Positions 14,407 through 17,933 are shown, counted from the stretch's first letter. The stretch is 64,000 nucleotides of DNA from Thermococcus sp. SY098 (GCF_035621495.1 NZ_CP141821.1:62001-126000); one strand, 5' to 3'. A program made the numbers and translations. Notes: generated by a model not told the origin, from the sequence alone.

Positions 14407-14796
14407 TTATAAAGTCTGACTCTCCCTGACTGCATCGTCTTCAAACTTTCTTACCTCTTCCTCTGTACCTACCCAAACCACTATCACCGGTTCAACTGTT
14501 ATCATGCCGTCCTTTATCATTGGTTTTATTTTGCAGATTGCCTCCTCTATTTTGTACCCCCTATCAACAGCTTCTATTACTATGGGCAAATCGGTTGACA
14601 GTCTCAGCACGTCGGCAGAATGCATTTTGCTTTTCTTGCCAAATCCCAGAATCCCCCTGTATACAGTTGCTCCAGCAATTCCCATCTCTCTTAACCTCTC
14701 CACTATCGCTTTGTAGAGGGGTTTACCTTTGTAAGAGTCATTTTCCCCGATATATATTTTCAATCTAAGCGTGTTCCAGTGCTCCACCTCGACCAA
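14407..14796 (-). CDS. DUF190 family protein
   Basis: 129 residues with the DUF190 pattern ([40 protein letters not shown]), a PII-like small fold often encoded beside crcB. It is the last gene of the fluoride operon. The likely start is the TTG at 14796, since the AAGGAGGTGA at the end of crcB is its ribosome binding site and the GTG at 14805 lies inside it. Function is unknown; the constant association with CrcB suggests regulation of, or partnership with, the fluoride channel. Confidence 0.8.
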
Positions 14797-14801
14797 CGCA
14801 T

Positions 14802-15173
14802 TCACCTCCTTGCGAGCATAAATCCCGAGAATACCAAGAGGAGCGTGAGAGATACGTTTGAAAAGACATTCAAAAATGCCTTTATGTACTCCTTCTCTCT
14901 GAGAAGAATAAACGTTTCATATGAAAATGTTGAAAATGTACTCAGAGACCCGCAAAAGCCAATTCCAAAAAACACCCTTGTCTTGGGCGAAATATCGTAA
15001 CCAAAGAACATAAGCCCTGAAATATAACCGAGCAGAAAACTTGCTATGCTGTTCACGATTAGTGTTCCGACTGGAAAATCTCTGTATACTGGTAGAAGTC
15101 CAGAAATGTAAAATCGGGCAAGTGCTCCCAATGCCCCTCCAAGGGCTATCTGAAGCACAAATTTGCTGCTCAT
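14802..15173 (-). CDS. crcB: Fluoride ion channel CrcB/Fluc
   Basis: 123 residues, four transmembrane helices, the normal size of a Fluc monomer. Signature residues are visible: [14 protein letters not shown] in helix 1, the conserved asparagine in [15 protein letters not shown], and [15 protein letters not shown] in the broken third helix that lines the fluoride pores. The channel is a dual-topology dimer that lets cytoplasmic fluoride escape. It overlaps the preceding small gene by ATGA, and the operon leader carries a fluoride riboswitch. Confidence 0.93.
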
Positions 15174-15406
15174 TTTCTTCCACCCAGCCTGAGGTAGTAA
15201 TCAATTATCTTTTCCACCTCTCTGCTCACCCCCTTTCCTCCGAGAGCAATATTCTCTGATGAGTATCCGAGTATCTTTATTGCCAAGGCTCTGTTGGCTG
15301 TGTATACCTCATAGAGCTTGTAATTTAATGATGATATCTGTTTGGTCAGTTCTAACAATTCCAGCCGGGCTTCATTTGTTGCTTCTCTCTTTTCGTAGCT
15401 TTTCAT
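15170..15406 (-). CDS. Small helical protein of the fluoride operon
   Basis: 78 residues, unrecognised. Mostly helical, with ATNEARLELLELTKQISSLN as a likely coiled coil. Its second half (ANRALAIKILG, then EVEKIIDYYLRLGG) resembles the C-terminal end of the 137-residue protein encoded two genes upstream (DNRNLAIQLSG, then DIEKLIHYYLSFEG), so the two are paralogous. It overlaps crcB by 4 bp and the preceding 54-residue gene by 35 bp. No membrane segment or signal peptide. Confidence 0.65.
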   Translation of the reverse strand: MKSYEKREATNEARLELLELTKQISSLNYKLYEVYTANRALAIKILGYSSENIALGGKGVSREVEKIIDYYLRLGGRK

Positions 15407-15536
15407 TTTCCTCCCTCAGCCTCTCAAGTTCCCTCAGCAGTATCTCCTGATCTTTTAAAGCTTTTTCATACCGATCTTTCATCAGAGCAAGTTCCCGTTT
15501 AAGTTCCTTGATAAGCTCACTTGGGATTTCATTCAT
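15372..15536 (-). CDS. Very small coiled-coil protein of the fluoride operon
   Basis: A 54-codon frame starting at the ATG at 15536, directly after the stop of the preceding gene, and ending at 15372. The product is almost pure coiled coil: after MNEIPSELIKELKREL the sequence runs as E/L/K heptads to RLREENEKLRKERSNK. Its 3' end overlaps the following gene by 35 bp in another frame. It has no strong ribosome binding site of its own, so translation by coupling is assumed. Support is position in a tight operon and consistent composition; no family is recognised. Confidence 0.5.
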   Translation of the reverse strand: MNEIPSELIKELKRELALMKDRYEKALKDQEILLRELERLREENEKLRKERSNK

Positions 15537-15537
15537 T

Positions 15538-15951: not shown

Positions 15952-16249
15952 TTTCCTTCATCTCTCTTCTCAGTTCTCTGTTTTCGATGCTGAGCTTTAA
16001 TCTAAACTCCTTCATTTTTTCTTTATCTTTCTTTGCTTTTTCGCTGAATTTAAGGAGCATTTGATAGTGCTCTTCCATCTCCTTGAGCTTTTCTTCAAGC
16101 CTTCTGCGCTTCTCAAGCAGGTAGTTAATCTCAAGTATTTGGAGCGTTTTTTCGAGTTTCCCCAGCTCATAGAATCTCCTTTCTATTTCTTTTTTCTCTT
16201 TTCTAATTTTCTGAAATTCGTCGTTGGTGACTCTAATCTCTATTTCCAA
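15929..16249 (-). CDS. Coiled-coil protein of the fluoride operon
   Basis: About 106 residues, nearly all charged helix (for example EIERRFYELGKLEKTLQILE and KRRRLEEKLKEMEEHY), predicted to be an extended coiled coil with no other domain. The start is uncertain: GAGGTG fits the TTG at 16249 best, while the GTG at 16258 overlaps that site. The gene overlaps both neighbours, so it belongs to the fluoride-riboswitch operon. No function can be read from the sequence. Confidence 0.6.
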   Translation of the reverse strand: MEIEIRVTNDEFQKIRKEKKEIERRFYELGKLEKTLQILEINYLLEKRRRLEEKLKEMEEHYQMLLKFSEKAKKDKEKMKEFRLKLSIENRELRREMKENENRGKA

Positions 16250-16943
16250 GCAGAACACCTCTGAGAATTGAATGCTGCTTCTGCCTCTTTACAAAGTTTA
16301 TCTGCAGGGGGAGTCCTTTGAGACTTTCAATTGCCTTGGGAACTGATGATGTTTCCTGTTCCGTAGGTGCATCAGTTGCCCTGTAATCGAACTTCTCAAT
16401 GAACAGGTGCATTAGGGTTTTTATTTTTTCCAGCTTTCCAATTTGAACTTTCCTAAGTTCTTCTGCAAGCTCTGGTTTCTTCCTTCTAAGCCTAACTTCA
16501 ATTTCTTCAAAGTGTCTCTTGCATAGGATTGCCTCAGAGTCCCTGTAGTTCTCAATCAGCTCGTCCATTCTATCCACTGTTGCCTCTACTGCATGCTTTT
16601 CTTTGACTTCTGTGAGTTCGCAGAGGTAGCATTTCCCTTCCTCGATCTTCTTTTCATCCCTCAGTGCATTGAGATAAATTGAAAGCATGTGTTCGTAAAT
16701 TATTGCAACTCCAAGCCCACCATAGAGGGGATTGGAATATGCAATGTCTTTAAGCTTCCATGCATGATATGGACATGATCCCAGACTCTCGGAGAACTTT
16801 TCTCTGACACTGGGACTGTTGACATGTTCGTAAAGTATATGCCCAATTACTTCTCTCTCGTATTTTTCAACGATCCTGCAAATAGGACATCCAGTTCCTT
16901 GAAAGGCTTCCCTGAGATATATTCCAATCAAATCCATAGCCAT
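16233..16943 (-). CDS. Cysteine/histidine-rich protein with two CxxC...CxxH modules
   Basis: 236 residues. Two similar modules are visible: CPIC at 19-22 followed by CPYH near 57-60, and CYLC followed by ILCKRH about 40 residues later. Each could bind one metal ion with a C2-CH set. The pattern resembles the DUF6062 type (first module: CPICRIVEKYEREVIGHILYE), which I name only tentatively. No transmembrane segment. It is second gene of the fluoride operon, 3 bp after the alpha/alpha-barrel gene. A metal-binding or adaptor role is an inference. Confidence 0.65.
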   Translation of the reverse strand: MAMDLIGIYLREAFQGTGCPICRIVEKYEREVIGHILYEHVNSPSVREKFSESLGSCPYHAWKLKDIAYSNPLYGGLGVAIIYEHMLSIYLNALRDEKKIEEGKCYLCELTEVKEKHAVEATVDRMDELIENYRDSEAILCKRHFEEIEVRLRRKKPELAEELRKVQIGKLEKIKTLMHLFIEKFDYRATDAPTEQETSSVPKAIESLKGLPLQINFVKRQKQHSILRGVLLGNRD

Positions 16944-16946
16944 TCC

Positions 16947-17801
16947 TCAGAAGCTGAGCAGATCATTTAGGGCTCTCAAAGCTCTGTACGTGTTCTGGAA
17001 GTTTGAAATTCCAAGCTCAAGGGATCGTCTGAATCCACCATTGGGATTCTGCAGTGCTCTAATGAATCTTATGTGCTCCTTTATGTATCTTGGCTTTCTT
17101 CCGAGGAGCTTCAATGCTCTTATGGCGTAAAACGTTGGTTCGAGGTAGGGAGGTAGAGACATTGGGACTTCTGTGAATCCTCCGTAAACTTCACATTCTT
17201 CAAAAAACCTTGTTTTTGGTACTGGATATCCAAGAACATTGAGGGAATATATGGCTTGATATGTCATTGTGACAGTTGGCTGGTTCACTCCGTAGCCGTT
17301 TCCTTTTCTAAAACCTTCTATGAAATCCCTAATCTTTTCTTTCATTTCATCTGTGATTTTATAGTTCAGCAGTGAAACAAGCCTCATGACCCAATAGGTT
17401 GATTCTAATGGAGTTGCTGCTCCAAATTCCTCACTTCCACCTAACCCAACGGAGAACTGTCCCTTCAGGGGATTGTATTTCGCAAATATGTATTCAAGCT
17501 TTTCTCTCGCCAAATCTTCAGCGCCAAGAATTGCAAGTGCTTCGCCGGCCATTGCTAAAGCAACTGTAGCCCTGTGCGGCTGAGCAGAGCTATTTAAAAA
17601 TTCGATTGTTTTTTCTTTTTCTGGAATTTCAAGATTGAACAGGTCATAGATTTTAACGGCATAGTATGTGTCATTTATATTTGTCTCATTCAGCATTGAG
17701 ACGAAGCAGTAGCCGCCATCTTCATGACGCCTCGTTGAGATGTAGTTTATAACTGCATTTAAATTTACATATCTCGCAAGTTCATTAAGCTTCGAGCCCA
17801 T
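16947..17801 (-). CDS. Prenyltransferase/squalene-oxidase-repeat-like alpha-barrel protein
   Basis: 284 residues with repeated helical-hairpin motifs of the type DGGYCF, NDTYYAVKIYDLF, ESTYWVMRLVSLL, NGYGVN...TYQAIYSLNVLG, PTFYAIRALKLLG and NGGFRR...NTYRALRALNDL. This periodic G-G-[FY] plus T-Y-x-A pattern is that of the alpha/alpha toroid found in protein prenyltransferase beta subunits and terpene cyclases. The DxDD or zinc ligands of the active enzymes are not apparent, so it may be a binding protein. It is the first gene of the fluoride operon; its ATG at 17801 follows AAGGAGGCGG and can pair with the aptamer tail. Confidence 0.7.
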   Translation of the reverse strand: MGSKLNELARYVNLNAVINYISTRRHEDGGYCFVSMLNETNINDTYYAVKIYDLFNLEIPEKEKTIEFLNSSAQPHRATVALAMAGEALAILGAEDLAREKLEYIFAKYNPLKGQFSVGLGGSEEFGAATPLESTYWVMRLVSLLNYKITDEMKEKIRDFIEGFRKGNGYGVNQPTVTMTYQAIYSLNVLGYPVPKTRFFEECEVYGGFTEVPMSLPPYLEPTFYAIRALKLLGRKPRYIKEHIRFIRALQNPNGGFRRSLELGISNFQNTYRALRALNDLLSF

Positions 17802-17836
17802 TCTACCGCCTCCTTCCATTTTTATGAGCATGAATT

Positions 17837-17933
17837 GGTAGAACAGGCGTCATCAGCCCTTAACGGGCGGTTCGGGCTCGAAGCCCGGGCGGACGCCATC
17901 GCCCGACTAAACGTGAGAAAGAAAACATTTAAA
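17837..17933 (-). promoter_or_regulatory. Fluoride riboswitch (crcB RNA) with promoter
   Basis: Leftward, a TATA box CTTTAAATG (about 17925-17933) is followed by an aptamer at 17905-17837. GGGCG (17904-17900) pairs with CGCCC to close a hairpin whose loop contains GGCGTC (17897-17892). A GC-rich hairpin (GGGCT/AGCCC) follows, then GCCC/GGGC, then TGATGACGCC, whose GACGCC (17851-17846) is the exact complement of the loop GGCGTC. This pseudoknot and the GGCGATGG...GGGCTGATG frame are those of the fluoride aptamer. The tail TTCTACC (17843-17837) is the exact complement of GGTAGAA (17807-17801), which reaches the A of the first start codon, suggesting control of translation initiation. Confidence 0.9.

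Follow-up and report, generated by a model that had tools for sequence, protein, structure and literature searches.

The crcB motif (RF01734) was described in archaea in 2010 (PMC2864571), and a 2014 study of Thermococcus kodakarensis found the RNA 'surprisingly' upstream of TK0513 and not of crcB, which has its own start site (PMC4247193). The switch has since been stated, with reference to Speed et al. 2018, to presumably regulate the translation of fluoride-export genes (PMC8241225). Here we analyze a locus of this type in a 64,000-nucleotide stretch of the Thermococcus sp. SY098 genome (GCF_035621495.1, NZ_CP141821.1:62001-126000; hereafter the window, with positions counted from its first letter), in which a single RF01734 aptamer precedes eight genes, the first of which, tor, encodes an alpha/alpha-toroid protein. 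We hold, at roughly three chances in four, that the element is a fluoride-ON translational riboswitch that has tor as its direct target and to which the downstream genes are coupled. An initial annotation of the same DNA had called the locus an undescribed system, a description that stands only in part, as a riboswitch before this gene rather than before crcB had already been reported in T. kodakarensis (PMC4247193).

The aptamer and the start of tor

The covariance model places the aptamer above its gathering score of 34 (53.2 bits, E = 6.6e-12), and in relatives 99.5% of its base pairs are kept, with compensatory changes in the pseudoknot and in P3. The GGCGUC/GACGCC pseudoknot, which the initial annotation had already recognized, is paired in all cells (100%) in 32 relatives, and one of its pairs has changed on both sides, from U-A to C-G, in 7 of them, which together with the score bears that assignment out. 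Judged by its sequence, the window's copy would be expected to bind fluoride. The annotation had also placed the aptamer directly after a TATA box, and the best promoter match of the operon is indeed a site resembling a TFB recognition element and TATA box (BRE/TATA) that ends about 22 nucleotides (nt) ahead of the aptamer core, as it does in the relatives; its 18.1-bit score comes from a matrix trained on 25 sites, which are the same promoters of relatives with the window site included, and is therefore not independent. A second strong TATA-like match lies within the downstream gene cc5 (15451-15466) and was rejected as a conserved promoter because it is kept no further than the closest relative.

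Main-class aptamers of the Thermococcales carry an extra hairpin, GGGCUUCGAGCCC, one strand of which, GCUUCGAGCCC, is the exact complement of GGGCUCGAAGC, a sequence that extends from the final base of the tor start codon over codons 2 to 5. The adjoining ACCGCC is complementary to GGCGGU, which overlaps the tor Shine-Dalgarno sequence. Every cell (100%) of the 11-bp anti-start helix formed with the hairpin strand is paired among 32 distinct leaders, three positions varying by wobble only, and the ACCGCC/GGCGGU pairing is kept in 93%; sliding the partner by 1-3 columns reduces the pairing of the whole structure to 30-49%. In genus g2, which we take to be Pyrococcus, the second part of the pairing is shifted but equivalent (CGCCUCCC with GGGAGGCG). 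The duplex of aptamer and start region in the window has a predicted energy of -35.8 kcal/mol, as compared to a mean of -11.2 and a minimum of -20.7 for 76 other start regions of the window. When the aptamers were replaced by dinucleotide-shuffled versions in calculations at 80 °C, the start region became more exposed than with the native aptamer in 51 of 51 leaders, and the native sequence ranked 2 of 40 or better in 47 of these. One candidate for the main switch that we set aside is a separate pairing in the tail, CCUGUUCUACC with GGUAGAAUGGG; 86.7% of its cells pair, but it fails in the Pyrococcus-like genus, and it is possible that it acts as a helper.

The conserved start of tor could instead reflect constraints on the protein or on initiation, with the match to the aptamer being coincidental or ancestral, and the retention of GGGCTCGAAGC in relatives with a changed hairpin, and in one that lacks the aptamer, is in keeping with this idea. 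Codon usage argues against it. Among 95 invariant tor residues that have synonymous codons, only Gly2 (GGC) and Ser3 (TCG) are encoded by a single codon in 33 of 33 genes, which are related and hence not independent samples, and TCG is the rarest serine codon in the remainder of tor. The starts were located by a sequence pattern that is present in every main-class locus of this 33-locus set. At codon 4 a one-base change from Lys to Glu preserves pairing through a G-U pair, and the third base of Leu5 varies exactly where the complementarity ends, just beyond the anti-start helix. We consider this alternative origin of the conserved start quite improbable.

Control by transcription termination, as opposed to hiding of the ribosome-binding site, also appears very unlikely. 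Transcriptional fluoride riboswitches are common, many of them in bacteria (PMC11077080), and the leaders of genus g1 are long enough to hold another element, but the stretch that separates the window's aptamer from the start of tor showed no T-run, several leaders leave fewer than 20 nt, and the conserved partner is the tor start region itself.

In the translational mechanism that we favor, GCUUCGAGCCC and the adjacent ACCGCC would, without fluoride, block initiation by pairing with the start region of tor, from the Shine-Dalgarno sequence across the start codon to codon 5. Fluoride and magnesium would let the pseudoknotted aptamer form and reclaim both strands, allowing ribosomes to load on tor, and DUF6062, cc3, cc4, cc5, h6, crcB and DUF190 would be raised by translational coupling of the abutting genes. 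CrcB exports fluoride; in the cytoplasm, the toroid encoded by tor would bind either a ligand or a protein and act with, or parallel to, export. Both the direction of the switch (ON) and the downstream coupling are what we infer from the locus.

Several observations weigh against this proposal. Double compensatory changes inside the anti-start helix were absent from the 32 leaders, so the helix is a case of conservation, not of covariation. In five relatives (L090, L091, L093, L094 and L101) much of the hairpin complement is gone while the start sequence is mostly kept, and in a second locus set the start pattern deviates in L091 and L092; the anti-start device is thus not universal. Genome G032 keeps just the last part of the aptamer and gives no crcB hit, yet its tor is intact and has the same start. 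Predictions at 37 °C leave some of the start region base-paired when the aptamer is removed, which means that in silico the fluoride-bound state does not come out as clearly open; at this temperature, comparing openness between leaders that have the aptamer and leaders that lack it did not distinguish the two states, whereas the shuffled-aptamer control at 80 °C did. Finally, position and gene order are the sole grounds for placing DUF6062, cc3 and cc4 under fluoride control.

Partners of the riboswitch across relatives

The main-class riboswitch was found in 88 of 94 family genomes (72 of the 74 good ones) and tor in 90 of 94 (74 of 74 good ones, broken in one, G011). When the two tables are joined, each of the 88 main-class riboswitches is followed on its own strand by tor, at a distance of 12-44 nt (median 23). 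Two genomes, G032 and G011, have tor without the aptamer; in G011 (L106) it lies in broken pieces beside crcB, and no riboswitch was found. G011 is a natural loss of the riboswitch-tor system.

The remaining genes are less regular. At 33 loci read in detail, tor occurs 33 times, crcB 25, cc3 24 and cc4 23 times (with one more fused to cc3), followed by the rarer DUF6062 (16), h6 (7) and cc5 (5); three combinations are the most frequent, namely tor-crcB-DUF190, tor-DUF6062-cc3-cc4-crcB-DUF190 and tor-cc3-cc4. The tor-cc3-cc4 combination, with no crcB at the locus, is found in eight genomes of genus g2, seven of which have crcB elsewhere (one as a fragment-length match); in the eighth (G035), an incomplete assembly, crcB gave no hit. 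Because cc3 and cc4 either co-occur or are both absent, and are fused in one genome, their distribution suggests that they act together. The same gene order is seen at 25 loci from named Thermococcales assemblies, a set that overlaps the 33, and in G030 the order is riboswitch, tor orthologue, crcB. Gene order in other Thermococcales was the check that the initial annotation had proposed: the riboswitch-tor pair is constant (88/88), but the downstream content varies (33 loci).

As tor stands behind all 88 main-class riboswitches and crcB is absent from eight Pyrococcus-like loci, the predicted constant target of the riboswitch is tor, not crcB. Were the riboswitch to serve crcB and DUF190, with the intervening genes as operon passengers, this would suit the standing of these two as established fluoride genes, which close the operon in 25 of 33 loci. 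The tor distribution, the eight genomes that lack crcB at the locus and the start site mapped immediately ahead of crcB in T. kodakarensis (PMC4247193) all argue to the contrary, and we give this explanation hardly any credence. The same facts undo the use of crcB and DUF190 as anchors of the system in the initial annotation, as crcB is the less constant partner and has that separate start site.

Other sequences near these and related riboswitches were also recorded. Pyrococcus-like g2 leaders (L057, L056, L060 and others) have a conserved element, GAGCCGAAACCGGCAACGGGAGTAGG, just 5' of the aptamer, and G030 has a near copy of it at another site, within an HgcC RNA match that falls below threshold. 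A second class of fluoride riboswitch, without the extra anti-start hairpin, precedes other genes: in 15 genomes of genus g3 (L031, L130-L143) it lies before an operon for NuoH-like, antiporter-like, 49-kDa-like and 20-kDa-like subunits. The 2010 study had noted genes for formate hydrogen lyase downstream of the crcB motif (PMC2864571). Since the 49-kDa-like subunit of L031 has no CxxC, the g3 operon may encode a hydrogenase-related complex without a NiFe site. In all 15 of these loci, GGAGGUGACGCC follows the Shine-Dalgarno sequence and repeats the pseudoknot 3' strand UGACGCC; this copy might rival the 3' strand in pairing with the pseudoknot 5' strand, which would be a masking design unlike that of tor. 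A GTG start for the hydrogenase-like gene was dropped, as codon 4 (TTG/GTG) behind GGAGGTGA fits better. Genome G038, which belongs to a different family of the class, has at L065 a fluoride riboswitch of 35.7 bits ahead of genes for a dynamin-like GTPase, a 101-amino acid (aa) protein and a distant tor homologue; crcB and DUF190 lie just upstream.

The operon and its products

Eight minus-strand open reading frames (ORFs) follow the aptamer, overlapping or separated by gaps of a few nt, and their layout and Pfam names agree with the eight overlapping or closely spaced leftward genes of the initial annotation (Table 1). Pfam recognizes tor (PF00432), DUF6062 (PF19538), CrcB (PF02537) and DUF190 (PF02641), and the middle four genes have no family. 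The start of tor is most likely at 17801 rather than at 17831, where the longer ORF begins.

Table 1. Features of the riboswitch-tor operon in the window.
Feature	Position	Strand	Remarks
BRE/TATA-like promoter element CAAAATCTTTAAATGT	17925..17940	-	18.1-bit matrix match, top site of operon
Fluoride riboswitch aptamer (RF01734)	17837..17912	-	53.2 bits; compensatory changes in pseudoknot and P3
Anti-start strand GCUUCGAGCCC, extra P2 hairpin of aptamer	17874..17884	-	Complementary to 17789-17799
Anti-Shine-Dalgarno strand ACCGCC, overlapping P3	17866..17871	-	Complementary to GGCGGU, 17805-17810
tor ribosome-binding site, start codon and codons 2-5 (GGAGGCGGUAGAAUGGGCUCGAAGC)	17789..17813	-	Duplex with aptamer (predicted)
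tor, alpha/alpha-toroid protein, 284 aa	16947..17801	-	PF00432, 54.2 bits; proposed direct target of riboswitch
DUF6062 protein, 236 aa	16233..16943	-	PF19538, 72.1 bits (cut-off 27)
cc3, coiled-coil protein, 109 aa	15929..16258	-	Conserved alongside cc4 in 24/33 loci
cc4, weak ribbon-helix-helix-like N-terminus and coiled coil, 137 aa	15538..15951	-	
cc5, short coiled coil	15372..15536	-	5/33 loci; start codon predicted from sequence
h6, helical protein, truncated paralogue of cc4 C-terminal half	15170..15406	-	Profile comparison
crcB (Fluc) fluoride channel	14802..15173	-	PF02537, 98.8 bits; TIGR00494, 95.6 bits (cut-off 80.45)
DUF190 (PII-like) protein	14407..14805	-	PF02641, 132.6 bits

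The AlphaFold2 model of tor (predicted local distance difference test, pLDDT, 91) matches RabGGTase beta, FTase beta and terpene cyclases in Foldseek, with template modeling (TM) scores of up to 0.74 (RabGGTase beta), and there is sequence similarity as well. One might accordingly imagine tor as a catalytically active enzyme, either a prenyltransferase or a cyclase, whose role under fluoride stress is to remodel isoprenoid lipids or to prenylate a partner. Pattern searches of the 33 tor proteins, however, found neither the D-x-C-[YF] zinc-ligand motif (0/33) nor the D-x-D-D acid motif of class II terpene cyclases (0/33), and no alpha-subunit-like partner was recognized, making an active enzyme improbable. 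At the level of motifs, tor is best described as having the predicted prenyltransferase/cyclase fold without the standard catalytic motifs. We regard as doubtful the suggestion that its ligand is a fluoride-affected species of the diphosphate or metal-phosphate kind.

The second gene, DUF6062, is the 'CxxC/CxxH protein' of the initial annotation; more exactly, it has two C-x2-C ... C-x2-H units. The invariant residues are C19, C22, C57, H60, C105, C108, C141 and H144, and the conservation of eight Cys/His residues in two units suggests two metal sites. Of 115 phylum genomes, 55 have DUF6062. A fold model of the protein (pLDDT 87) has no PDB relative at E < 1, a sequence search of the PDB returned chance matches only, and the literature searched contained no mention of it. 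Profile searches of the PDB with cc3 and cc4 gave mainly generic coiled coils. The N-terminus of cc4 resembles RHH_1 weakly (2 of 23 orthologues at E < 0.01, best E 1.9e-4), is poorly kept in the Pyrococcus-like genus and matches the aCcr1 model at E 0.0012, below the cut-off. The h6 protein aligns with the C-terminal half of cc4 (probability 95.7, E 9.8e-9 by profile comparison), and PHROGs gave no match for the five operon proteins tried.

These results divide an earlier proposal that all six genes ahead of crcB belong to a fluoride response. It holds well for tor, which lies behind 88 of 88 riboswitches and has a start complementary to the aptamer; DUF6062, cc3 and cc4 travel with tor in 16, 24 and 24 of 33 loci, and the weak part is cc5 and h6, which occur in 5-7 of 33 loci, h6 being a partial cc4 duplicate. 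The proposal went on to suggest an assembly that binds fluoride-affected metal complexes or protects enzymes, and nothing was found to show such an assembly. A role of tor, DUF6062, cc3 and cc4 in fluoride tolerance is our inference from the locus. We put forward, tentatively and as somewhat less than an even chance, that the Thermococcales have a second, cytoplasmic arm of fluoride defense consisting of tor, DUF6062 and cc3/cc4, which would be workable without crcB in the operon and would be controlled by the start-codon-masking aptamer hairpin.

The divergent neighbor of the operon is a peptidase M54 gene (17978-18730), beyond which, within 17978-22041, lie genes for a glycosyltransferase and Cas6 and a 632-aa ORF without a Pfam match. 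A CRISPR array of about 40 repeats (CRISPR-DR6) occupies 36548-39262 of the window.

Comparison with described systems

Few archaeal riboswitches have been tested and their mode of action is little known, and the masking model is precise and testable. If it is true, the uncharacterized and universally kept tor would be, for an entire archaeal family, the principal product under fluoride control, and tolerance to fluoride would go beyond export. As far as we can tell, the anti-start pairing with its codon signature, the family-wide constancy of tor and the accessory gene set are new, although Speed et al. 2018, reportedly on the fluoride response in T. kodakarensis, may hold part of the pairing.

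The locus resembles other RF01734/crcB motif loci in its aptamer, its pseudoknot and the crcB and DUF190 genes of its operon, but it differs from them in having an extra hairpin that would double as the anti-start strand and a first gene that encodes a toroid and is no known fluoride gene. It is of the same type as the T. kodakarensis crcB RNA/TK0513 locus, with riboswitch, tor orthologue and crcB, whereas in the window DUF6062, cc3, cc4, cc5 and h6 are added to the operon and no gap precedes crcB. The alpha/alpha-toroid fold links tor to protein prenyltransferase beta subunits and to class II terpene cyclases, but pattern searches did not find their standard catalytic motifs in tor. The window's CrcB/Fluc and DUF190 genes both meet their family cut-offs; they are distal in the operon, and in the Pyrococcus-like genus they are gone from the locus.

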